Origin: Altibacter sp. HG106
GTDB lineage: Bacteria > Bacteroidota > Bacteroidia > Flavobacteriales > Flavobacteriaceae
Direction: 5' to 3'
Assembly: GCF_028561755.1 (NCBI RefSeq)
Contig: NZ_JAQQTD010000002.1
Span: 1-64,000 of the forward strand
Length of the DNA: 64,000 bases
Shown here: positions 51 to 27,846 of the stretch, one piece after another
Layout: each line of letters starts with the position of its first letter
Position numbering within the stretch: position 1 is the stretch's first letter
Made by a program: the position numbers and the translations under genes
The notes under the pieces: generated by a model
Told to the model about the DNA's origin: nothing
The model's database searches: none
What the model saw: only the letters and a program-made list of their open reading frames with translations

Positions 51-124
51 GGTCTGGTAGTTCAGTTGGTTAGAATACCTGCCTGTCACGCAGGGGGTCG
101 CGAGTTCGAGTCTCGTCCAGACCG
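51..124 (+). tRNA. tRNA-Asp (anticodon GTC)
   Basis: A complete cloverleaf can be drawn. The acceptor stem GGTCTGG pairs with CCAGACC, the anticodon loop is CTGTCAC (anticodon GTC), the T-arm contains GTTCGAGTC, and the discriminator base is G at 124. No CCA is encoded. Its 3' part, from base 102 on, is repeated at 19440, which marks this gene as the integration site of the element to its right. A terminator hairpin follows at 136. Confidence 0.95.
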
Positions 125-127
125 CAA
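102..127 (+). repeat. attL: 26-bp tRNA-derived direct repeat
   Basis: The 26 bases from the T-arm through the tRNA 3' end plus two bases (CAA after the discriminator region) are identical to 19440-19465. One base further left the copies differ (C here, A there), which fixes the left limit. A core inside a tRNA 3' end is usual for tyrosine-integrase elements because the tRNA stays intact. Confidence 0.9.
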
Positions 128-1789: not shown

Positions 1790-2986
1790 ATGAAACTTAA
1801 GATATTATTTCTTTTATATAAATCTAAAGCCAATTCTACTGGCAGGTGTCCAGTTAGGTGTAGAATAACCAGTAATAAAAGAAGAAAAGAATTCTCAACA
1901 GGACTTTTCATTAATCCAGATTACTGGAACTCCAAGAAACAAAAGGTGGAACCCTGTGAAGATAGCACCTACATCAACCAACAGCTGAGCCTGGTCAAGA
2001 ACAACTTGTATCAGGCTTTTTTGTTTTTGCAGGTTAGTGGTGAGTCCTTCACTGTGGAGGATATCTACAGTCGTTACAAAGGTGAACCAACAACAAATGA
2101 AAAACAAGTGCTTGAAACCTACCGTGAATACTTAACCAGAATAGAGAAATTAATCGGGAAGGATTTACAGTTGGTAACCTATAAAAAGTATCAGGAATCG
2201 TATAGGCACCTAGCTGATTTTATCAAATGGAAATACAAGCGTAAAGACGTGCAATTGAAGTCTCTAAAAGGGGTTTTTTTAGACGATTACAGCTATTTTC
2301 TAAAGGTGGAAAAGAGCTTAGCTCAGAGCACACTAAATAAGGCGATACAGCGCTTCAGAAAGGTGGTAAAGTATGCTGTTGCACAGGATTATTTAAATAA
2401 GGATCCATTTCTTCTTTACAAGCCAAGAACAAGCAAGAAGGAAGTGGTTTTTCTAAGCAGAAAGGAGCTTACCATTCTGGAGGAAAAGGAGTTCGCTTTG
2501 GAACGTCTAGAAAGGATACGGGACATGTTTGTTTTTTGCTGCTATACAGGATTGGGTTTTAAAGAAATGGCTAATCTGAAGAAGGAGGATGTGTATGTGG
2601 AATTTGATGACAAACCATGGATTCATGTAAAAAGGCAGAAGAACAATCGTACCTATAAAATCCCAATCCTAACTAAGGCAAGGAAAATCATGGTCAAGTA
2701 TGATGGGGAATCGCGGGAGATGGTGTTACCTTCTATCAGTAATACTCATTTTAACGCCTATCTTAAGGAAATAGCAAGCCTCTGCGGTATTAAAAAGCGA
2801 TTGACCCATCATATAGCCAGGAAAACCTTTGCCACCACTATTTTGCTTTATAATGACGTTCCTATGGAGATCGTAAGTAAATTGTTAGGGCATTCAAAGT
2901 TACAGACGACGCAGGACCATTATGGTAAGGTTATTCAGAAGCGAATTAGTGAAGAGATTACACGAATAAGTGGAAAATTCAAGTAA
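1790..2986 (+). CDS. Tyrosine-type site-specific integrase
   Basis: 398 residues. The N-terminal arm-binding domain (about 1-100) has the Bacteroidota pattern FSTGLFINPDYWN, followed by a SAM-like core-binding domain (about 105-200) and a catalytic domain. The catalytic region shows HHIARKTFATT (His-x-x-Arg), LLGHSKLQTT and the nucleophile Tyr in DHYGKV about 20 residues from the end. The first catalytic Arg position reads TGLGFKEM, without the Arg of canonical recombinases, as is common in Bacteroidota element integrases. It should catalyse integration and excision between the tRNA-Asp-derived repeats. No excisionase gene is evident beside it. Confidence 0.93.
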   Translation: MKLKILFLLYKSKANSTGRCPVRCRITSNKRRKEFSTGLFINPDYWNSKKQKVEPCEDSTYINQQLSLVKNNLYQAFLFLQVSGESFTVEDIYSRYKGEPTTNEKQVLETYREYLTRIEKLIGKDLQLVTYKKYQESYRHLADFIKWKYKRKDVQLKSLKGVFLDDYSYFLKVEKSLAQSTLNKAIQRFRKVVKYAVAQDYLNKDPFLLYKPRTSKKEVVFLSRKELTILEEKEFALERLERIRDMFVFCCYTGLGFKEMANLKKEDVYVEFDDKPWIHVKRQKNNRTYKIPILTKARKIMVKYDGESREMVLPSISNTHFNAYLKEIASLCGIKKRLTHHIARKTFATTILLYNDVPMEIVSKLLGHSKLQTTQDHYGKVIQKRISEEITRISGKFK

Positions 2987-3034
2987 TAGTCATTGATCCA
3001 ATATTTTACAGAAATAAATTATTACCTTTATTAC

Positions 3035-3106
3035 GACTCGCTAGTTCAACGGATAGAACGTGGACCTGCTAAGTCCAAAGTGGGGGTTCGATTCCCCCGC
3101 GGGATT
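3035..3106 (+). tRNA. Atypical tRNA-like gene, anticodon GCT, short variable loop
   Basis: D-stem GTTC/GAAC, anticodon stem TGGAC/GTCCA with loop CTGCTAA, and T-stem GGGGG/CCCCC with TTCGATT are all perfect. The anticodon GCT reads serine codons AGC/AGT, yet the variable loop is only about four bases, whereas every normal tRNA-Ser has a long variable arm. The D-loop GGA and C35/U36 resemble arginine tRNAs. The acceptor stem GACTCGC/GCGGGAT has one A-A mismatch and two wobble pairs, and the discriminator would be T. It may be functional with altered identity, or a decaying tRNA fragment. It lies 48 bases after the integrase stop. Confidence 0.6.
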
Positions 3107-3137
3107 ATTCCTTCCCGATAAATGGGAGACTATATAG

Positions 3138-3166
3138 AAAGGCTATCTGTCCGGTAGCCTTTTATA
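3138..3166. terminator. Bidirectional terminator between tRNA-like gene and TPR gene
   Basis: AAAGGCTA and TAGCCTTT form a hairpin around TCTGTCCGG, with T-rich sequence on the right. The reverse strand also ends in AAAGG...CCTTTCTAT. It separates the rightward tRNA-like gene from the leftward TPR gene, whose stop is at 3176. Confidence 0.6.
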
Positions 3167-3175
3167 TTTTCTTTG

Positions 3176-6100
3176 TCACTTAAAATACAAGCTTTTCACT
3201 TCCTTGTGCACAGACATCACTTCATTCAAGTTTGCCCCCATCAATTTAAATTCAGAAAAAAGAACTCCTCCTAATAAATTGACTTCATTTATTCCCATAC
3301 CATACATCAAGTTTCTAATTATATCGAAAGCATATCTATTCTTATTTTCTGTCGTGATTGAGGTAGTTAGATAGATATCCTTTAAAAATTTTGCACAAAC
3401 CGGAATAAGAAGATTATTATTATGAAGTGAGTACTGTAAATTATATAAAGCCATGGAATATTGATTGTCCTTTCCAGCGAGCATTTGAAAAAACTCATTC
3501 TTTAACACATCTAAATTTAAATCAATTCCCGAATAATTATTCTGTAATAAAAAACTATAAAATTCTGTATCGCACTTATCTCGGTTATAAACCCTTAAAT
3601 ATTTTTCTGGACTCAGTAACCACTTATTAATCTGTATAGAATCTTCGCTTTTCAAAAGATACAAAGAAGAGTCACTCGTGATTAGTCTAAAACCATTTCT
3701 ACTTGTCAAAAACATATTATCTACAAGGTATCCGAACAATGTATCCCTCTCTTTTCCCTCTTGTTCTAACCTTAATGCGATTTCAAGTTTTTCTTCTACA
3801 TTGTCAATCAAGCAATTCTCATCAATCCACTTTAGAATTTCTCTGTAAAATTCAATCTTTGAATTTTTATCTGGCAATGGAAACACCTTTACACCCTCAA
3901 GAGTAATTTGCGTTGTAAGGCCATCTTCTGGGGCATTTTCTGCCTCTTTTAATCCAATTAAGAATATTTGCTTGGTATAATAAGAAACCGTGAATTTATG
4001 CTCAAATTGAAAATTTAGTTTCCTATAAAGTTGATAGAATAAAATTAGTGAAGTAACATCCAAACCATAGACTTCGCTAATTTTTGTGTTTATAGGATTG
4101 GTTGCTAAAATTGGGAGCGTAGTAAATTTTGAAGTATTATGACCTGTTAAGTAAAAATAGGCATCAACCATATTGCCTCTGAATACCATCTTGGAAACTT
4201 CAGAAAATCCGATGCGGGAATTATAGTAGTCTTGCAATCCTTTTTCTTTATACTCTTTTTCTTCAGTTCCTCTTGCACCAAAATTTTTAATCAGAAAATC
4301 CTCAAACTCTTCTTTGTTGGAAGGAAATTCAATCATTTTAAACCCTAATTCATTTAATGGGTTTTCAATCTCTTCTTGAATATTTCTTAATAATTTGAGT
4401 GCATCATTATATATTTCAACAATCTCTACTGTATGGATTGACATGTCCAGATTGTTTGTATCCGTAACCGTATCTCCGACCTTTTTACCAATTAACTTTC
4501 CTTTAAAGCCACTATCGGAATCAATAAATATTTCATTTAAATCTTTACCATTGGTTCTGAATCTCACCCATACATCAATTTTTACCTTTTCATATTTTTC
4601 AAAAAATCTCTTGTCATATTTTATCAATAAAGCCAAATATTCCTTTCTTGCTTGTGTATTTGACTGATTCAATGCCAAATTGTAAAGGATTTTAAAACCA
4701 TAATCAGCCTCTATGTCATTTCGAAGTAAAATCACTGCAATAAGTAATGCAACCGACTCATCAGCAAAACTTGCAGGAAATAAACTGACCTCATTTTTTA
4801 TTTCATCATAGGCTCCTAAAATTTCAAGTGTCTTCACATAGGCTACAAGATATTGTTCATTTGTGGGGTCAATTTCCTTCAGCACTTTAACAATACTTTT
4901 TACCTCACTCCAATTGTTTGTAAATGCATGTAAGCTATACTCAATCCGCAACAATTCTTCATCGGTTTGATTATGAATTGTTCTAAAATTCTTGAGTAGA
5001 TCCAGTAACTCAGAATGATTCCCCTCTCCTGTTTTCTCATTGCTCTGCAATTTTTTATACAAAAGTGAAGCATACATTACCAATTCTTGTGATGGTTTTT
5101 CTTTATTTACAAATTCAGATAAAAAATCTATCGCTTCATTTATTCTGTCAATCGATTGGTAGGATTCAGCAATTAGACTCTTGTAGTTATGGTCTAAATC
5201 ATCAGCTTTCTCAAGCTCTTTCAGCTCTTCAGATAGTTTTTCCTTTCTTACTTCTGAGATATCTAAATACCTGGTTTCACAGCTTATAATAAATACTTGT
5301 TTAAGATTTTTTGATTTAAATTTTTTGGATTTTACTTTTTCTATATGTTCTAAAAAAAGTTCTTTATCCAATGTCCTATTAAACACATTAAAGAAAGAGT
5401 TCAAAATGTTAAAACCCTTTTGCTCGTCAATCATTTCAATGCCGTCAAGGTAGCTGTCAAAAACTTCCTCGATTTCATCTGTCCTTTTTAGGAAAAAGAG
5501 AACTGCTGATTTAACAAGATATAATTCACTGACCAGCTCTTCAGATTTTTCGTATTCTTTTAATGCCAACAATGCATCTTCATAATCAGAATTTACAAGT
5601 AACGCCTGTACAAAGGTCATTGTATAGAACCAATTTTCTTTTGGAATGGAGGCATATAGGTTCTTCAAATCATCTAATCGAGACTTTTCCTTTTTCAGAA
5701 AAAAATCAAAATAATGGTAGACGTGTTTGTGATGCCAAATTGCCTTCGAAAGTTCAGTATTCTGCAGAGTCGCAACATACTTCTTCAGCAATGGCATAAG
5801 ATTTTTTACCAAATGATGTGATACTACTGGATTTTCCTTACCAGCAAGGAAACGGATTGGGTAATCACCAAAAATCTCATTGATAAGCAAGTCCAATGTA
5901 ATCGACCATAATTGTCGATTTGTAAAAGTTACTTCATTATACTTATCGTATTCTACTTTGAACTGAAAATTATCGATTCCCACGTTTAAACCGAGAGCAT
6001 GTTTTCTTAATATGTAGTTTGCGATATTTATTTTAAAGACATATTCATTTTGTACTGATTTTGGAGTTTCTTCAATCGCTACTTTTAAATCTTTAGAATT

Positions 6101-6571
6101 ATGAAGTCTTATTAGCCAAGCAACAATACTAAATTCATCTTCTTTGAGAATCTCATCTGCTATTTTATCCGCTTTCTTTGGTTCTTGTAGGTTCAAATAT
6201 TCAATTCCGGCCTTTTCTCTTAACTCCGTATCTGTGGGGTTTAATCTATATGCTTGCACAAACTCTTTTGCAGTTTCTTTGATAGCAAATTGTTGTAATT
6301 CTCTTTTACATGTAGCACTCAAGAAAAGAATTTTACTTTTTATTTTTGGGTTTCTGTTTAATTCATCCGGAATCCTTTTTTGGAGGTTTTCTAATTGCTT
6401 TAACGCAGTATCTGGCTTAAACTCATCAATTAGCAATTTTATACCTTGTAACTGGGCTTTATAATCTTGAAGCAACAATTCAAGGCCCTGAAGATGTATA
6501 TTATAAGTATCACCAACTCGAAAAGCACCACCATTAGTATTTACATTTCCAGTATTTATATTACTTCCCAT
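3176..6571 (-). CDS. Large TPR protein with N-terminal amyloid-like motif, GreA-C-like and PIN-like domains
   Basis: 1131 residues. Residues 4-23 carry the motif NINTGNVNTNGGAFRVGDTY, nearly the same as the C-terminal motif of the upstream small protein. Residues about 30-660 are helical repeats of TPR type. Around 680-735 the run FKGKLIGKKVGDTV resembles the C-terminal FKBP-like domain of GreA/GreB. Around 800-970 a PIN-like nuclease is suggested by GLDVTSLILF (first Asp) and LITSDSSLYLL (later Asp). There is no P-loop, so it is not a classic STAND NTPase. Its start overlaps the preceding gene by 11 bases. I infer a sensor/nuclease that recruits or is recruited by the small effector through the shared motif. 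The domain calls are by eye. Confidence 0.7.
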   Translation of the reverse strand: MGSNINTGNVNTNGGAFRVGDTYNIHLQGLELLLQDYKAQLQGIKLLIDEFKPDTALKQLENLQKRIPDELNRNPKIKSKILFLSATCKRELQQFAIKETAKEFVQAYRLNPTDTELREKAGIEYLNLQEPKKADKIADEILKEDEFSIVAWLIRLHNSKDLKVAIEETPKSVQNEYVFKINIANYILRKHALGLNVGIDNFQFKVEYDKYNEVTFTNRQLWSITLDLLINEIFGDYPIRFLAGKENPVVSHHLVKNLMPLLKKYVATLQNTELSKAIWHHKHVYHYFDFFLKKEKSRLDDLKNLYASIPKENWFYTMTFVQALLVNSDYEDALLALKEYEKSEELVSELYLVKSAVLFFLKRTDEIEEVFDSYLDGIEMIDEQKGFNILNSFFNVFNRTLDKELFLEHIEKVKSKKFKSKNLKQVFIISCETRYLDISEVRKEKLSEELKELEKADDLDHNYKSLIAESYQSIDRINEAIDFLSEFVNKEKPSQELVMYASLLYKKLQSNEKTGEGNHSELLDLLKNFRTIHNQTDEELLRIEYSLHAFTNNWSEVKSIVKVLKEIDPTNEQYLVAYVKTLEILGAYDEIKNEVSLFPASFADESVALLIAVILLRNDIEADYGFKILYNLALNQSNTQARKEYLALLIKYDKRFFEKYEKVKIDVWVRFRTNGKDLNEIFIDSDSGFKGKLIGKKVGDTVTDTNNLDMSIHTVEIVEIYNDALKLLRNIQEEIENPLNELGFKMIEFPSNKEEFEDFLIKNFGARGTEEKEYKEKGLQDYYNSRIGFSEVSKMVFRGNMVDAYFYLTGHNTSKFTTLPILATNPINTKISEVYGLDVTSLILFYQLYRKLNFQFEHKFTVSYYTKQIFLIGLKEAENAPEDGLTTQITLEGVKVFPLPDKNSKIEFYREILKWIDENCLIDNVEEKLEIALRLEQEGKERDTLFGYLVDNMFLTSRNGFRLITSDSSLYLLKSEDSIQINKWLLSPEKYLRVYNRDKCDTEFYSFLLQNNYSGIDLNLDVLKNEFFQMLAGKDNQYSMALYNLQYSLHNNNLLIPVCAKFLKDIYLTTSITTENKNRYAFDIIRNLMYGMGINEVNLLGGVLFSEFKLMGANLNEVMSVHKEVKSLYFK

Positions 6572-6947
6572 AATTATCTCCTATTCTAAAATCACCACCT
6601 CCAGTATCAACATTTCCCATATTGACATTCTTACTGCCCTTAATCTTCATATCCGATTTGGGTAGTTTAGAAATGATTTCCTTAAAATGATTTAGGTTTT
6701 CTGAGTTTGCTTCAATGGAATTTTCAAGAATAGATTTTACTATTTCAAGTTTCGATTCATTTGAAGGATTCTTTTGGAGTTCCTTTAGGGCTTTCTTAGG
6801 CTCGCCTTCTTTGTAGAATAAAGATTTTACCCAATTTATAGCTCCTTGGGATATTGATTTTCCCGTATCCTCTATAAGGCTCTCAAGACCTTTAGTTGCT
6901 AATGATACCGCTAACGCAGTAAGCATTGATGAAGTGATTAGTGGCAT
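6561..6947 (-). CDS. Small Bell-like effector with C-terminal amyloid-type motif
   Basis: 128 residues. The N-terminal part (residues 5-45) is an amphipathic/hydrophobic helical stretch, ALAVSLATKGLESLIEDTGK then INWVKSLF. It resembles the start of bacterial Bell domains, the proposed pore-forming partners of NLR-type sensors. A charged helical region follows, and residues 107-126 end in NVNMGNVDTGGGDFRIGDNY, matching the N-terminus of the next protein. It overlaps that gene by 11 bases and is translated first. By analogy with NLR-linked amyloid signalling pairs it would be a membrane-active cell-death effector triggered by templated fibril formation. This function is inferred. Confidence 0.65.
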   Translation of the reverse strand: MPLITSSMLTALAVSLATKGLESLIEDTGKSISQGAINWVKSLFYKEGEPKKALKELQKNPSNESKLEIVKSILENSIEANSENLNHFKEIISKLPKSDMKIKGSKNVNMGNVDTGGGDFRIGDNYGK

Positions 6948-14348: not shown

Positions 14349-16313
14349 ATGAGCGATACGGATAATTATATTCTATTACCATCACTAAAGCACATAAAAG
14401 TTTCAGATTATACTCTGTTTCAGAAGGATTGGGAATACAAGGTGCAAAAAGGATTGAATTTGTTTGTTGGAGTAAATGGTCTTGGGAAGACAACAACAAC
14501 AAGCTTAATTATTTACGGTTTAGTTGGATTCACTGCTAATTATGATCGTGAAATATTTAATATTGATGAAGATTATTTTATTAATAGAAAAGATGCAAAT
14601 TCAAATGATGATCAAGCGTTGTTAGAGGTAGAGTTTTATGTAGGTAAAAATGTGTTCAAAATCACGCGAAGATTATTTGAGGAGGAAATAGTTAGTTTCA
14701 CCTATAATTCGAAGGACCAGGATTCTGACAATTATTCAGAATATCTTGTTCGAGATACCAAACTAGGCAGTATTGAGGATTTGGCATTTATCTTAGAGAA
14801 ATTTCTTATTAGAGAGGAGGAAGCAAATTATCTTTTATGGAATTTCAAGGACCAATCAAAACTACTTCAACTACTAATTAGTCCAATTGGTTTTAAAGAG
14901 AAGTATCAATCCATGGCAAATGAACTCTCCGATTTAACCACGTTTATTAATAGAACTAAGGATACTAATCTCAAATCATTAAATAAGCAATTAGAGGATG
15001 CTAAGAAGCTCAAATTAGCGGATAAAACATCGAGTAAAACGGAAAAAAATCGATTAAAAAAAATTGATTCTCTAAATCTTGAAATCACTGAACTTGATGA
15101 CAAAAGAACCAAAATTTTAGCTGGCTGGAAAGATTCTCATACTTCGTTGACAAAGTTAAGATTGTCAATAGAAAAGGTTGTTTCTGAAATAGATGGTATA
15201 AATGAGCAAATTCTACATATAGAACACCAGTTTTATAGGAATACTTATACTGATAAAAAAGTAATGAGTGCAATTCAAAAATTGAAGTACTATGATTCCT
15301 GTATTTATTGTGATAATACTGTTAGCGGGCAGATAAAGGAAAGGATTCTCGCTATAATCCAGAATGAAAAATGCCCGGTATGTCGTACAAAGTTTGGTGT
15401 TCAGGATGATGAAGTTACAGAGCTGCAATACGATATTGATGATCTAAAGGATTTAGAACAAAAATTAGCTCGGCTCAGCAAGAAAAGGTTAAAACTGGAG
15501 GAGTCTAAGATTAAAATTAAGTTAGAGAATGATCAGAAAGCAGATGAACTTGAAAAATTGAATGACAAACTCGATGATCTAAATATTGAGCGGTTGAAAT
15601 TGAATATTGAGCAGAAGACTGCTGAATCAAAAGATGATTACTCAATATATGACATACAAATTAAGACTTTAAGAGAGAATATTGATAAAATTAAAAATAA
15701 GCTACTACCCAAAGAAAATAAGGCCAAGCAACTCGCCTTGAAATTGGAAAAGGAAAATGACAAACTATCATCAGTAGTAGCTGAGAACCTTTCGCTGATT
15801 AATAATAGCTTCCGTTCTTTAGCTGCAGAATACTTTCGGGATGACAGTGAGCTTCAAATAAAACAGAAGCAACTTAAGAAGACCAATAATTTTGAGAAAA
15901 TCAGACAGTCGCATTATGTCCCATATTATGAGGGCAAACAAAGAACTTTACAAAAACATTGTAGTACCTCAGAAAGATTATTTCTTGAATATTTATTCCG
16001 ACTCAGTCTGATGAAATTATATTTGGAATTGAGGAATGATAAGGGTAACTCATTCTTAATTTTTGAAACCTCCGAAGGGGCTTTTGATGTTAAATATACG
16101 GCTCGACTAGCTCAAACTTTTGTCGATTTTGCAAAGACCTCTGATGCCCAGTTGATTCTTATTGTTAATTTAAGCAAACCTGATTTTGTCAAGAATTTAC
16201 TCGAAGGAGTATCAAGTGATGAGGGTATATTAAATTATCTTGATTTTGGAAGAATTTCACCTGCGGAATTGAAACCTTATTCTGAAACTATTAAAATGAT
16301 TGGTTTAGCATGA
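14349..16313 (+). CDS. Rad50/SMC-like ATPase with zinc hook (Lamassu/ABC-3C-like)
   Basis: 654 residues. Walker A GVNGLGKTT is near residues 41-49. Long coiled-coil arms flank a zinc hook at about 316-345 with two CxxC pairs (CIYC and CPVC). The C-terminal ATPase half contains SERLFLEYLFRLS in the signature position and LIFETSEGAFD in the Walker B/D-loop position, where the usual Asp-Glu reads Glu-Thr. Size and layout match the SMC component LmuB of Lamassu and the ATPases of ABC three-component systems. Expected job: sensing DNA ends or structures and gating a nuclease. It is the first gene of a fully overlapping operon. Confidence 0.82.
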   Translation: MSDTDNYILLPSLKHIKVSDYTLFQKDWEYKVQKGLNLFVGVNGLGKTTTTSLIIYGLVGFTANYDREIFNIDEDYFINRKDANSNDDQALLEVEFYVGKNVFKITRRLFEEEIVSFTYNSKDQDSDNYSEYLVRDTKLGSIEDLAFILEKFLIREEEANYLLWNFKDQSKLLQLLISPIGFKEKYQSMANELSDLTTFINRTKDTNLKSLNKQLEDAKKLKLADKTSSKTEKNRLKKIDSLNLEITELDDKRTKILAGWKDSHTSLTKLRLSIEKVVSEIDGINEQILHIEHQFYRNTYTDKKVMSAIQKLKYYDSCIYCDNTVSGQIKERILAIIQNEKCPVCRTKFGVQDDEVTELQYDIDDLKDLEQKLARLSKKRLKLEESKIKIKLENDQKADELEKLNDKLDDLNIERLKLNIEQKTAESKDDYSIYDIQIKTLRENIDKIKNKLLPKENKAKQLALKLEKENDKLSSVVAENLSLINNSFRSLAAEYFRDDSELQIKQKQLKKTNNFEKIRQSHYVPYYEGKQRTLQKHCSTSERLFLEYLFRLSLMKLYLELRNDKGNSFLIFETSEGAFDVKYTARLAQTFVDFAKTSDAQLILIVNLSKPDFVKNLLEGVSSDEGILNYLDFGRISPAELKPYSETIKMIGLA

Positions 16314-17023
16314 GTGTAAATCACATACCATTCAAGGACTATAATAGATCTAATGAGGTATTACATATTCTGTATGCAGCTAAAACTGTAAATATTCAAT
16401 CGTTATCTAAAATTGGAATTCAAAAGATTTTCTATTTAGCAAATTTGCTGTCTCCTGTCAAGGAAATTGTTTTAGCCACAATAAGATTCGTAAGTCACTA
16501 TCGAGGTCCATATTCAAAAGAGATCCAAAATACCGTGGATCATCTTACTGCATTAGGATATGTTGAGATTGAAGATTTTATTGTTCACAATCATAAATAT
16601 TCAATAGCTAAATATTCATTAAGTGATGCTGGTGAATCCGTTGTTAATAAACTGGTTGAGTACAGTAAGGAAAATGAAAAACAATGGTGGTATTCAATTT
16701 TAATTCAAGTCTCAAATATATATTCTAACGAAGAAATTTTTGAGGAACATAGTAGCTATGATGGATTCGATCATATTGTGGACTTGGTTTATAAAGATTC
16801 TACATATCTAAGTATAAAGAACAGTCAAGATTTCAGAAAGTTCATAGACACATCTGATCCATCCACCCCAACGTATAAATTAATTGAATTTGTAAAAAAA
16901 TTCATTGTCACGCAGGATTTACAGGTTGAGAGAACCGATGAAAAGCGAATAGCCGAGTTAGTAATAATAAGCTTTTTTGAATTCCTATATTCTAAATATA
17001 TCGATGAATTTGCCAATGGATGA
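16310..17023 (+). CDS. Winged-helix-like middle component of the SMC system
   Basis: 237 residues, beginning in an ATGA overlap with the SMC gene. Residues 25-115 look like a winged helix: helices around VNIQSLSKIGIQKIFYLANLL, then HLTALGYVEIEDF and a wing-like strand pair before YSLSDAGESVVNKL. The rest is helical. Size and place fit the small middle protein (LmuC or ABC-3C middle component) that bridges ATPase and effector. Assignment rests on context and fold impression, not on a catalytic motif. Confidence 0.65.
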   Translation: MSVNHIPFKDYNRSNEVLHILYAAKTVNIQSLSKIGIQKIFYLANLLSPVKEIVLATIRFVSHYRGPYSKEIQNTVDHLTALGYVEIEDFIVHNHKYSIAKYSLSDAGESVVNKLVEYSKENEKQWWYSILIQVSNIYSNEEIFEEHSSYDGFDHIVDLVYKDSTYLSIKNSQDFRKFIDTSDPSTPTYKLIEFVKKFIVTQDLQVERTDEKRIAELVIISFFEFLYSKYIDEFANG

Positions 17024-18083
17024 TCAAACGAGATATATAAATACACTAATGGGAGGGATATTCACGAAATTATCGTTATTAGATAAACTTACTCCTCCTA
17101 GCTATAATTTGGACTTAATTAATTCAATTTTGAGACTGATTCGATCAACTGCCTATCAGTCGCAGATTGACAAGTTTTCCTTATTTGTTCTTGCAGTTTA
17201 CGACTCCTCTTCAGTAATAGAGGGAAATGGAATTAAGTTAACGGATATTTTTACCACAACTTTGATCAGTGACTACAACCTGGATGAAGCTAATATAGTT
17301 GAAATAAATAATAAGGGAGAGCTCATAGAATCGAAAAAGTTTGGTCGAAAGAGGATTCTATTTTACGATGAGGGGTTTGAAATTTCAACGTTTAACAAAG
17401 AAGTAAAGTTTTTTATTATCGATGGGAACAGTCTACACATATTTTTTGAAGGGAATTATGTAAAGGCCATACCTAATATATTCAATCAAAATGATTGGAG
17501 AGGACAGCATCATCGGATATCCATTCAAGAGGTTGAGTCAGTTTTGGAAAGGTATCGTAATTCATTTCCTAAAGATTATAAGCCGAGCTGGTACTGGCAG
17601 AATAAAAAGGACAGAATATTAAAGAAGGAACCAGAAGTGTTATTGGGGATGTTTTTTTATCAATTTCTGGATAGGATAATTTCAGATGCCAAGATTGATG
17701 GAGAATGTTTTAATTCAAATACTGATGATAAGCTGGATGTCAGAGCGGTTCATTACGAAACAGGAGATCTCTATATTTTTGAGGTAAAATGGATAGGGGA
17801 GAGTGAAACTGGCACCAAATACCTTGATGAAAAAGCACATGAACGGGCGAATGAGGGGATCGAACAATTAAAGATTTATATTGATCACGAGAATGACTGT
17901 AAGGTTGGAGTATTAGTCCTTTATGATGGCAGGCCAAATGATGAAAAAATCAACTGGCTAGACACAGAAAAATGGGATAGTAAAATATACGACCCTCCCT
18001 TTAGATTATATATGGAAACAACCAGTGCTTCAGTAGCTGCGACTAAAATAATACGAACAAAGAAACGTGAGAAAAATAACTAA
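17016..18083 (+). CDS. PD-(D/E)xK-like nuclease effector
   Basis: 355 residues from the ATG at 17016, which overlaps the previous stop by 8 bases; an in-frame ATG at 16977 is less likely. The C-terminal half has a PD-(D/E)xK-like site near residues 240-260: KLDVRAVHY, then DLYIFEVKW (Asp, then Glu-x-Lys), followed by helix HERANEGIEQLKIYI and the strand VGVLVLYDG. The N-terminal 190 residues are unrecognised and may bind the partner proteins. It is the likely DNA-cutting effector of the operon. Its stop lies inside the methyltransferase start. Confidence 0.72.
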   Translation: MDDQTRYINTLMGGIFTKLSLLDKLTPPSYNLDLINSILRLIRSTAYQSQIDKFSLFVLAVYDSSSVIEGNGIKLTDIFTTTLISDYNLDEANIVEINNKGELIESKKFGRKRILFYDEGFEISTFNKEVKFFIIDGNSLHIFFEGNYVKAIPNIFNQNDWRGQHHRISIQEVESVLERYRNSFPKDYKPSWYWQNKKDRILKKEPEVLLGMFFYQFLDRIISDAKIDGECFNSNTDDKLDVRAVHYETGDLYIFEVKWIGESETGTKYLDEKAHERANEGIEQLKIYIDHENDCKVGVLVLYDGRPNDEKINWLDTEKWDSKIYDPPFRLYMETTSASVAATKIIRTKKREKNN

Positions 18084-19365
18084 AAGTAAAGACGTAGATT
18101 TAATTGACTATTCAAACGAGTACAGTGATTTAGTATCCTTTAAATCAAACTTGTATCATCCAAAACACAGGTGGTATCCATTTGTAGAAGGTTTCTCCAC
18201 TGAATTTGTAAGACGAATATTGGGAGAGCAAAACTACATTCCTGAAAATTGCTTAGAACCTTTTGGTGGCATCGGTACTACGGCTCTTACTTGTCAGGAT
18301 CTAGGTGTTAAATGCACGTCCGTTGAGAGTAATCCATTTTTCTACAAGACTGCAAGAGCAAAACTACTGGACTACTCAAGCCTGGAATTTGAGAAATTGC
18401 TTATTGAATTTGAAACATATCTAACATCATGTACGAGTGCAGTTGTTTTACCCGAATTAGAATCTAAAACTTTTTTTGAATCAAAGGAAAAAAACAAATG
18501 GATTTTCCACAAAGAAGTATCAAATGGAATAGGTGATATCCTTGGTAAAATAGAAGCAATTAAAGTTACACATAGTGATTATGCAGTTTTATTTGAAATT
18601 GCATTGGCAAACATTCTGCTTCCAGTAAGTAATGTGTTTAGAAATGGAAAATGTTTGAGTTATCGGCGTGGTTGGGAGGAACGCAAATTTGACAGGAAAG
18701 AAGTTCATACTAGATTCATTGATGTATCTAAACTTATCTTGATAGATATACGATCTAAGGAGAGACAAATTAAGGTGGTTGAGAATCATTCAACATATTA
18801 TAATGCAGATTCCAGGAATAAATTGATGGATCTTGATGATGAAAGTTTTGATTTGATAATCACATCACCTCCCTATTTGAATTCTAGGGACTATACCGAC
18901 GTATATCGTCTAGAGCTATGGATACTGGGATATATAGATAAATTTGAAAAAGAAAAAACACTTAGAAAGAGTGCTATCACCTCACATGTTCAGATAAAAT
19001 TACCTGAAACAAAATATCCTGATGTTGATGAAATCAATCAATTTTTGGAACACCTTAACGGACTAAATGGACGTTTATGGAATAATAATATACCTCGAAT
19101 GATCAGTGGATACTTCAATGATATGGAAGGAATTTTAAGTAATCTTCATAATAAGCTCAAATCTGGAGGAAGAGCTTATATAAATGTATCAAATTCAGCT
19201 TACGGTGGAAAAGTTTTAAATGTTGACTTAATCTTATCTGAAATTGCCCAAAGTTTAGGTTTTAATACCGATGAGATAAGGATTGCTCGATTATTGAAAT
19301 CAAGTAGTCAACAGAAAATTACTGGACCAATACGAGAGAGTGTAATTATTCTTTCTAAAGGCTAA
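18067..19365 (+). CDS. DNA methyltransferase (TSPPY type)
   Basis: 432 residues from a GTG at 18067, overlapping the nuclease stop by 17 bases. AdoMet-binding motif I is LEPFGGIGTTAL (about 60-71), and catalytic motif IV is TSPPY (about 271-275) followed by NSRDYTDVYRLELW. This identifies an N4-cytosine or N6-adenine enzyme, with motif I placed before motif IV. The interposed 200 residues probably include target recognition. Its presence as the last gene of an SMC-nuclease operon suggests it marks host DNA so the nuclease spares it. The gene ends 75 bases before attR. Confidence 0.85.
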   Translation: MRKITKSKDVDLIDYSNEYSDLVSFKSNLYHPKHRWYPFVEGFSTEFVRRILGEQNYIPENCLEPFGGIGTTALTCQDLGVKCTSVESNPFFYKTARAKLLDYSSLEFEKLLIEFETYLTSCTSAVVLPELESKTFFESKEKNKWIFHKEVSNGIGDILGKIEAIKVTHSDYAVLFEIALANILLPVSNVFRNGKCLSYRRGWEERKFDRKEVHTRFIDVSKLILIDIRSKERQIKVVENHSTYYNADSRNKLMDLDDESFDLIITSPPYLNSRDYTDVYRLELWILGYIDKFEKEKTLRKSAITSHVQIKLPETKYPDVDEINQFLEHLNGLNGRLWNNNIPRMISGYFNDMEGILSNLHNKLKSGGRAYINVSNSAYGGKVLNVDLILSEIAQSLGFNTDEIRIARLLKSSSQQKITGPIRESVIILSKG

Positions 19366-19439: not shown

Positions 19440-19465
19440 GAGTTCGAGTCTCGTCCAGACCGCAA
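19440..19465 (+). repeat. attR: second copy of the tRNA-Asp 3' end
   Basis: 26 bases identical to 102-127. The upstream half of the tRNA is absent, so this copy is not a tRNA gene but the far att site. The gap 19366-19681 contains this repeat, the terminator copy at 19471-19503, and a T-rich stretch with possible promoter boxes (TTTG near 19589 and TTACTTTTAG near 19605) before the lipoprotein gene. Confidence 0.9.
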
Positions 19466-19470
19466 AAGTT

Positions 19471-19503
19471 AAAAAGCCTCTCAGCAATGAGGGGCTTTTT
19501 TTG
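19471..19503 (+). terminator. Duplicate tRNA-Asp terminator beside attR
   Basis: The hairpin AAGCCTCTCA-GCAA-TGAGGGGCTT plus T-run is identical to the one at 136-167. The short spacer between the 26-bp repeat and the hairpin differs (AAGTTAA here against CCCAGTAT there), so one of the two came with the element from a related host. Confidence 0.8.
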
Positions 19504-27028: not shown

Positions 27029-27162
27029 ATAATTTTTTTTCAAATACAGGGTAGGGTAAAATCTGTTCCACTTGTTGTATACATAGTTCTTGGAAAGAAA
27101 TTTGTACCATAATGTACCATCTTTTCACTACTTTTAAATGTTTCACCTTAAAAACATCACCT

Positions 27163-27846
27163 ATGGAACGGAGAAAATTTATAAAACAATCGGGTCAGGC
27201 CTTATTGGCAGCATCTACCATTTCTATTACCGGAGCACTTATTTCGTCTTGTTCTCCAGACGATGAGGTCGAAGGGTTTTTTGGTGACGGGTATTACGGT
27301 GATGGTTATTATGGAGACGGTTATTACGATGATGGCTACTATGATGACGGCTATTACGGAGATGGTTATTACGACGACGGCTATTATGATGACGGATATT
27401 ACGATGACGGGTATTATGACGACGGTTACTACGGTGATGGGTATTATGACGACGGCTATTATGATGATGGTTACTACGACGACGGCTACTATGGAGATGG
27501 CTATTACGATGATGGATCGGCACTTACAAACATATTGCTCGACGGAATCTGGGCCGTACAATCCTATATCGATAGTGGCTCCGATCAAACCGGAACCTAT
27601 GCAGGTTATGGTGTCGACTTTATGAGCGGGAACGCAGTAACCGCCAGTAATGGAAGCAATACCAACACGGGTACCTGGCTGGTGACCAGCGGAGGTAACG
27701 GACTAAGTCTTGCCTTTTCGGGTTCTCCTTTTGATGAGTTTAATGACGACTGGGACGTGTTTAGTGTCTCGACTACGCGCGTCGAACTTAGAGATGTGAG
27801 CGGTGGCGGCGGCGGTACCGATATCTTGGTATTCGAAAAAAATTAA
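27163..27846 (+). CDS. Tat-type lipoprotein with fifteen YY(D/G)DG repeats
   Basis: 227 residues from the ATG at 27163; an upstream reading from 27112 adds an unlikely leader. The start MERRKFIKQSGQALLAAS has twin arginines, and ALISSC provides a lipobox, so a Tat-exported lipoprotein is likely. Residues about 40-117 are fifteen tandem five-residue units YY(D/G)DG, extremely acidic and tyrosine-rich. The last 100 residues look lipocalin-like (LDGIWAVQSYIDSG, GTYAGYGVDFM, TGTWLVTSGG, STTRVELRDV, DILVFEKN). The repeat may bind calcium or other cations, or act as a surface spacer; this is inference. Confidence 0.75.
   Translation: MERRKFIKQSGQALLAASTISITGALISSCSPDDEVEGFFGDGYYGDGYYGDGYYDDGYYDDGYYGDGYYDDGYYDDGYYDDGYYDDGYYGDGYYDDGYYDDGYYDDGYYGDGYYDDGSALTNILLDGIWAVQSYIDSGSDQTGTYAGYGVDFMSGNAVTASNGSNTNTGTWLVTSGGNGLSLAFSGSPFDEFNDDWDVFSVSTTRVELRDVSGGGGGTDILVFEKN
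27283..27515 (+). repeat. 15-bp tandem repeat encoding YY(D/G)DG
   Basis: About fifteen and a half copies of a 15-bp unit, GGxTAyTAyGrwGAy-like, with silent changes scattered through the copies (TAT/TAC, GAT/GAC, GGT/GGA). The central base of the third codon toggles Gly/Asp. The reading frame is preserved because the unit is a multiple of three. Copy number could vary by slippage. Confidence 0.9.

Follow-up and report, generated by a model that had tools for sequence, protein, structure and literature searches.

A GCU tRNA-like gene with an open acceptor stem in an integrated element of Altibacter: a possible mimic of tRNA-Arg

The closest published case found for the gene described here is the tRNA-Other of Bacillus cereus, a pseudo-tRNA located beside a genomic island, which carries a Trp anticodon and is embedded in larger transcripts that include a 5' leader region (PMC3399842). 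The criteria adopted for RNAs of this type are a cloverleaf that is kept, loss of the acceptor function, transcription signals of their own, no association with polysomes, and a deletion phenotype. Functional phage tRNAs, which have their own promoter, counter tRNA-targeting defence, and changes in the anticodon or the stem-loops of a phage tRNA-Tyr abolished this protection, which is read as a need for the translation function rather than decoy binding (PMC11555353). The tRNA fragments found at integrated elements (attR) may also be annotated as standard tRNAs (PMC9897764).

The gene lies at positions 3035-3106 of the window, that is, the whole stretch of 64,000 nucleotides analysed from Altibacter sp. 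HG106. On the tRNA-Other-type criteria, its stems and open acceptor are conserved in three relatives, and both a promoter-like box and a terminator-like hairpin are present, all at the level of the sequence. It differs from tRNA-Other in its GCU anticodon, arginine-like body, and position inside an element next to an integrase, and in a box that predicts a start at nucleotide 1 rather than a larger, leader-bearing transcript, with the two being compared by description. Like the defence-countering phage tRNAs, it is a tRNA gene on mobile DNA with its own promoter (here, a promoter-like box only), and unlike these functional molecules, it is predicted not to be an adaptor. It resembles the attR fragments as a tRNA-like sequence in an integrated element that is called by a tRNA finder, but is a whole cloverleaf, internal to the element, with a single-copy 3' part.

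Among the GCT, ACT, and listed CCT cloverleafs and the host tRNAs, the nearest ordinary kind is tRNA-Arg(CCU), with phage tRNA-Arg(TCT) being outside this comparison. A total of 48 positions of the core of approximately 57 nt match a phage-contig tRNA-Arg(CCT), and the best match in the plasmid collection is also a tRNA-Arg(CCT). The gene shares A20, C35, and U36 with tRNA-Arg(CCU), and departs from it in G34 (not C34), the open acceptor top, and U73. No description of this RNA was found in the titles and abstract openings listed from the open-access literature on such tRNAs and tRNA-like RNAs.

The integrated element and its tRNA-like gene

An element of approximately 19.3 kb is inserted into the 3' end of a tRNA-Asp (Table 1), given the identical 26-nt repeats, which take in the 3' end of this tRNA, and the similar terminator-like copies behind both of them (133-165 and 19470-19502). 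The integrase contains Phage_integrase, Arm, and SAM-like domains (Pfam), and its end is separated by 48 nt from the tRNA-like gene. The cargo includes phage-like proteins (AAA_24, DUF5906, and a RadC-like protein) and a GIY-YIG/NUMOD1 protein. The 1131-aa protein has no match in Pfam, PADLOC, or the trusted NCBIfam models, and a 128-aa protein, also on the minus strand, has none in PADLOC or the trusted NCBIfam models.

Table 1. Positions in the window of the features of the element and the tRNA-like gene.
Feature	Position	Strand	Basis
tRNA-Asp(GTC), insertion target, rebuilt at left end	51-125	+	ARAGORN, Rfam
Left attachment repeat, 26 nt	102-127	+	Repeat search
Tyrosine recombinase (integrase) of the element	1790-2986	+	Pfam PF17293, PF13102, PF00589
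TAnnTTTR promoter-like box (TACCTTTA), ends 4 nt before nucleotide 1	3023-3030	+	Chance of 0.013 in this upstream sequence
tRNA-like cloverleaf, class I, anticodon GCT, open acceptor top, U73	3035-3106	+	ARAGORN; Rfam 53.6 bits; structure; relatives L066, L071
Conserved 3' flank ATTCCTTCC	3107-3115	+	Alignment; identical in window, L066, L071
Terminator-like hairpin, then T-rich run	3137-3163	+	1 found vs 0.2 expected in shuffles
Protein of 1131 aa, convergent with the tRNA-like gene	3176-6571	-	Conserved neighbour in L066; no copy found in L071
Right attachment repeat, 26 nt, identical to left	19440-19465	+	Repeat search

Three minor features of the window are also recorded. By eye, the 1131-aa and 128-aa proteins (3176-6947, minus strand) have a common motif near one end, resembling NTGNV-T-GG-F--GD. 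The segment at 14349-19365 is defence-like, with an LmuB-like ATPase (E=2.3e-14), a weakly DarG-like protein, an uncharacterized protein, and a type II DNA methyltransferase. A protein at 27112-27846 has a run of GDGYYDDGYY repeats encoded by 15-nt tandem DNA repeats.

ARAGORN recovers only two tRNAs in the window, the tRNA-Asp(GTC) and the gene at 3035-3106, called Ser(GCT), and Rfam RF00005 agrees on the position, plus strand, and GCT anticodon of the latter. The Rfam scores of the two are 67.9 and 53.6 bits, respectively, the gathering score being 29. The first-pass annotation had described a GCT anticodon on an arginine-like body that lacks the serine arm, inside a mobile element, with perfect D, anticodon, and T stems, a variable loop of about 4 bases, C35, U36, and an A in the D-loop as arginine-like marks, and a weak acceptor stem, and this description is borne out. 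All pairs of the three stems are formed. With a variable loop of 4 nt (AAGT), and no long arm, the molecule is class I. The D-loop (GGATAG) contains A20, in addition to C35 and U36 in the anticodon, and the acceptor is weakened by G1·U72, A2×A71, and U4·G69. Position 73, the discriminator, is a U, and the gene does not encode CCA. The class I GCT pattern has one match in the window and none in 100 shuffles. In RNAfold, a stretch of 141 nt has a z-score of -3.98, and its minimum-energy fold forms the T arm, with no cloverleaf in the 5' half.

The arginine identity set comprises A20, C35, U36, and A/G73, and serine identity relies mainly on the long variable arm, with G73 as a lesser determinant (PMC9976931). 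The A20, C35, and U36 of the gene fit the former set. The GCU anticodon pairs with AGC/AGU and not with an arginine codon, however, and in place of the 7-bp acceptor and A/G73 of a functional tRNA-Arg, the gene has G1·U72, A2×A71, and U73, while AAGT and U73 replace the long arm and the G73 of a canonical tRNA-Ser(GCU). Judged by its letters, then, the gene fails the tests for both tRNA-Ser and a working tRNA-Arg, and its candidacy as a serine tRNA was rejected on the short variable loop and U73.

The host genome (25 contigs, 99% complete) contains 35 tRNAs according to Rfam, including an ordinary class II, long-arm tRNA-Ser(GCU) (L011) and tRNA-Arg genes with the anticodons TCG, TCT, and ACG. 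Acceptor mismatches are found in only two of the 34 other host tRNAs, one tRNA-Met(CAT) at 1-72, and tRNA-His at two pairs.

Close relatives and predicted transcription signals

The degenerate pattern of a class I GCT tRNA was matched at 13 viral-contig loci and at 37 loci in 84,980 species genomes. Two of the genome loci are close to the window's gene. These are L066 (Flavobacteriaceae UBA3611), with 70/72 nt or 97% identity to 3035-3106, and L071 (Flavobacterium anhuiense), with 88% identity, which form a close family of three members together with the window. A direct DNA search of 199 genomes of the host's family, like the searches of sets of 296 and 395 genomes, matched the host's own genome alone, and none of the phage records matched the gene. 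The tail motif GAWTAT, with any anticodon, matched 0 viral contigs, and is thus not a general mark of such RNAs.

L066 has the same setting as the window, behind a related integrase and adjoining a tRNA-Asp, and conserves both the 1131-aa and the 128-aa proteins, whereas L071 is located beside a thrC-like gene, with different neighbours, and no integrase was found in the 8 kb fetched around it. The integrase has relatives in 46 of 395 genomes of the order (E<=1e-80), and at the 36 loci compared (29 from genomes and 7 viral, with 26-58% identity), the tRNAs or tRNA halves seen were Met, Val, Ser, Pro, Arg, Asn, or Asp, with a class I GCT gene at none of the 36. On these grounds, the reading of the gene as a conserved partner of the integrase was rejected. 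A partnership with the 1131-aa gene is not general either, given that no homologue is present in the 8 kb of L071.

The integrases of this group (L224-L258, approximately 35-58% identical to that of the window) have different targets, including Met, Val, Ser, Asn, and Asp genes and Arg/Pro clusters. At L228, L245, L254, L256, and L258, the truncated tRNA halves begin at the anticodon loop, which suggests a crossover there, unlike the 26-nt repeat of the window, which starts in the T arm.

The three family members have in common G1·U72, a mismatch at 2-71 (N2×A71), and U73. Between the window and L071, three acceptor substitutions (pairs 4, 5, and 6) keep the pairing, while two changes in L071 break the anticodon-stem pair 27-43. 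Between the window and L066, identity is 97% in the gene, 64/69 in the 3' flank, and 39/50 in the 5' flank, in comparison with 79% protein identity and 37.6% at 4-fold sites in the integrases, and 83% and 67.8%, respectively, in the 1131-aa proteins. The conservation of the putative tRNA-like RNA and of its 3' flank far exceeds that of the synonymous sites of the neighbouring genes, which argues for selection on this RNA, and local exchange between elements may also be a source of the similarity to L066.

The 3' part and tail of the gene are present in one copy in each of the three genomes, with up to 3 mismatches allowed, and none of the repeats of at least 20 nt in the window involves this 3' part. 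An attR-type fragment has a second copy of the 3' part of its tRNA at the opposite end of the element; 3035-3106 has no such second copy, and the element's own repeats are those of the tRNA-Asp. An origin of the family as an att remnant, which was considered, is unsupported on these grounds, and is unlikely because the 3' end is single-copy in all three genomes. In F. anhuiense, eight sister sequences inspected have other DNA next to thrC, and none of the 11 sister loci that were fetched has a tRNA according to ARAGORN.

The promoter-like box, which is of the Bacteroidota type, is separated from nucleotide 1 by a gap of 4 nt in the window, L066, and L067, a Bacteroidales relative, and of 3 nt in L071, with a chance of 0.010-0.041 for such a box in the shuffled upstream sequence of each of the four. 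The box is perfect in L067 and L071, ends in A, without the final G, in the window and L066, and is absent in L053, a Hymenobacter relative and one of the five Bacteroidota members. Visual inspection revealed no clear -33 element before the gene. In F. psychrophilum, a box of this kind spans -12 to -5 (PMC9723704), and the gap of 4 nt therefore predicts a start at nucleotide 1. This predicted start sets the gene apart from the other tRNAs of the host: 33 of these (the tRNA-Asp, preceded by less than 60 nt, was left out) lack even a relaxed box within 9 nt upstream, while the perfect boxes found within 40 nt upstream of 15 of the other host tRNAs are all 10-37 nt away. A terminator-like hairpin also follows the L071 gene, and the predicted RNA of the window would be approximately 130 nt long.

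Similar GCU cloverleafs in phages and other bacteria

Similar GCU cloverleafs were found across phyla. The GCT set comprises 52 cloverleafs, from the scans and the window, of which 47 pass a structure filter of at least 13 of the 14 D, anticodon, and T pairs, which drops 5/52 GCT, 4/80 CCT, and 8/16 ACT rows. The CCT control consists of 80 loci listed of at least 120, all viral, and identical or near-identical viral rows (L040/L044, L088/L102, L089/L093, and L273/L279/L283) mean that the counts are not independent.

The two top pairs of the acceptor, 1-72 and 2-71, are present together in 20 of the 47 GCT cloverleafs (12/35 from genomes and the window, 8/12 viral), in comparison with 73 of the 76 listed viral tRNA-Arg(CCU) controls and two of the eight ACT cases. 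The acceptor top is open in 27/47 GCT and 3/76 listed viral CCT cloverleafs, although most GCT rows are from genomes, and the gap is smaller when viral contigs are compared like for like (4/12 GCT vs 3/76 listed CCT). In the 27 open GCT cases, the pairs from 1-72 to 7-66 are formed in 26, 19, 59, 89, 96, 93, and 100%, that is, the loss is mainly at the top, with pairs 4-69 to 7-66 still 89-100% paired. A20 is kept in 23 of these 27, while C35 and U36 are fixed by the search pattern. The position 73 is followed by CCA in 61/76 listed CCT and 4/47 GCT cases, in lineages that differ in the encoding of CCA.

When any anticodon was allowed, with AAW at 71-73, 16 of the 37 viral cloverleafs were open, 13 of them with a non-arginine anticodon (ACT, CAA, CAT, CTT, GCT, TAT, or TCA), and the remaining three with CCT (twice) and ACG, whereas all 21 closed cases had an arginine anticodon (TCT, CCT, or ACG). 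Open acceptors thus go with variable anticodons, while the arms are mostly kept, and the many non-arginine anticodons look as if decoding had ceased to matter. Broken genes would likewise show an excess of wrong anticodons, and the open set may include broken copies, but the intact state of the other three arms speaks against simple breakage.

Ordinary tRNA-Arg(TCT) or (CCT) genes fitting the same pattern are also present in 10 of 15 chosen genomes with a GCT copy, so the odd GCT gene is often an extra copy. A tyrosine recombinase was found in the fetched stretch at 7/51 GCT loci (window included) and 16/80 listed CCT loci, by an iterated profile search that distant integrases may escape, and the tie to integrases is therefore not general, although two other open cases, L043 and L072, are located beside integrases. 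In Pfam, one neighbouring protein from each of 20 loci revealed no common theme. Sigma-70-like promoters (at least 10 of 12 matches, null up to 2.7%, mixed phyla) were found in 5/26 open and 2/20 closed GCT cases, 2/6 open and 0/2 closed ACT cases, and 0/2 open and 0/65 closed CCT controls among those listed, and in L067, one of the five open GCT cases, this promoter overlaps the Bacteroidota box.

The 3' acceptor strand is repeated in inverted form just downstream in three of the 27 open GCT cases (L043, 11 nt; L084, 10 nt; L078, 9 nt) and, among the eight ACT cases, in the near-identical contigs L088/L102 (13 nt). At p<=0.02, none of the 20 closed GCT or 75 listed CCT cases passed this test, and neither did the window's own gene. 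Where it is present (9-13 nt), the inverted copy could form a competing hairpin.

A further group of phage-contig cloverleafs (L260:697, L261:2708, L273:2426, L279:3891 in minus-strand numbering, and L283:4465) combines one of the anticodons CTT, CAA, and TCA with an acceptor that is weak or open, and L261, L273, L279, and L283 are alike except for the anticodon and a few bases. By eye, complementary stretches flank all five, as in GTTTGTTA ... TAACAAAC, and suggest an outer helix around a tRNA-like core, although the contig ends close to the downstream stretch in L283, and the match in L261 is partial.

Explanations for the tRNA-like gene

The explanation preferred here, tentatively and at less than even odds, is that the gene encodes a stand-alone tRNA-like small RNA of approximately 130 nt, derived from a tRNA-Arg, and most likely a mimic of tRNA-Arg rather than a normal adaptor. 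It draws on the pairing potential, the conserved defect, the promoter-like and terminator-like signals, and the conservation between elements present at the locus. Transcription would start at or next to nucleotide 1, leaving no leader for RNase P, and would stop at the hairpin. The RNA would retain three arms of a tRNA-Arg (D, anticodon, and T), and because its acceptor would have only 5 bp, with an open top and no CCA, it is predicted not to be a normal translation adaptor, a part of the reading that is moderately supported; one mismatch and a G·U pair need not stop CCA addition or charging. Such a small RNA should have its 5' end at nucleotide 1, with a triphosphate, a 3' end without CCA, and no amino acid attached.

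The step to a mimic is one that we infer, and it is preferred because the gene has kept the arginine marks but not the ends required for charging. A protein specific for the arginine body would bind the RNA and be unable to use it, which could benefit the element, and candidates would be arginyl-tRNA synthetase, tRNA-cutting toxins, and defence nucleases. None of the three genomes of the close family contains AAA_13 (PrrC/RloC type), so this search yielded no candidate nuclease. The phage tRNA-Tyr result (PMC11555353) counts against the decoy or mimic reading.

Next in probability, though unlikely in itself, is a pseudogene or integration remnant, in which a copy of a tRNA-Arg was caught by recombination, had its 3' end replaced, and is now decaying. 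The loss of the acceptor top is as expected after a swap of the 3' end, the gene is rare, two other open cases adjoin integrases, dead genes would likewise show a wrong anticodon and a broken acceptor, and tRNA fragments at integrated elements can pass for standard tRNAs (PMC9897764). The single-copy 3' part, which is outside all of the longer repeats of the window, speaks against this, as do the intact D, anticodon, and T stems, which the search did not demand, conservation far above that of the neighbours' synonymous sites, the flank being identical in a distant relative, and the position of the F. anhuiense gene adjoining thrC, where its sisters have other DNA and no tRNA. A conserved tRNA-like small RNA is thus likelier than decay, which is possible, and the simple decay raised in the first-pass annotation is not favoured, given this conservation of the RNA and its 3' flank and the promoter-like box and terminator-like hairpin in place.

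Slightly less probable again is a regulatory RNA that acts by base pairing or as a scaffold, with the tRNA fold serving mainly as a stabiliser, as proposed for tRNA-Other. Its own promoter-like box and terminator-like hairpin would suit such an RNA, as would the 3' stretch GATTATTCCTTCC, identical in the window, L066, and L071, and the inverted acceptor strand downstream of some other open cases, but the window's own gene fails this last test, and keeps arginine identity positions that are not needed for base pairing.

A real tRNA charged with arginine, which would insert this amino acid at AGC/AGU serine codons, as the first-pass annotation had envisaged, appears improbable. The retention of A20, C35, and U36, the intact anticodon loop, and the well-paired core are consistent with charging, while U73 in place of the A/G73 of the arginine set (PMC9976931), the open acceptor top kept in all three relatives, the predicted leaderless transcript, and the varied, non-arginine anticodons of the same structural class argue against it, and Ser-to-Arg misreading is not supported by these features. 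A serine tRNA with a shortened arm has only the GCU anticodon in its favour, and is highly improbable in a gene with neither the long variable arm nor G73 (PMC9976931), in a host that has a normal class II tRNA-Ser(GCU).

On a broader scale, and as a speculative extension of the mimic of tRNA-Arg, phages and the genomes of many bacterial phyla may have repeatedly turned tRNA-Arg into acceptor-less mimics, with the arms kept, the acceptor top opened, the anticodon drifting, and promoters of their own, which would act as decoys or regulators aimed at the proteins that recognise tRNA-Arg. If they are decoys, they would offer mobile DNA a way to interfere with, or guard against, proteins acting on tRNA-Arg. 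Because these genes appear as ordinary tRNA-Ser(GCU) in the output of a tRNA finder, annotations may conceal a class of tRNA-like RNAs.

Three further observations concern class I GCT genes outside the close family. L052, L065, L081, and L040/L044 have normal or near-normal acceptors, with CCA encoded, and are better candidates for misreading than the window's gene. The closed-acceptor GCT tRNAs of L047, L080, and L083 are located 18-126 nt from members of a single protein family, which is transposase-like by eye. In the unrelated bacteria of L075 and L086, the GCT tRNAs are found 116-127 nt from related small proteins that resemble, by eye, HigB-type toxins with a helix-turn-helix partner.
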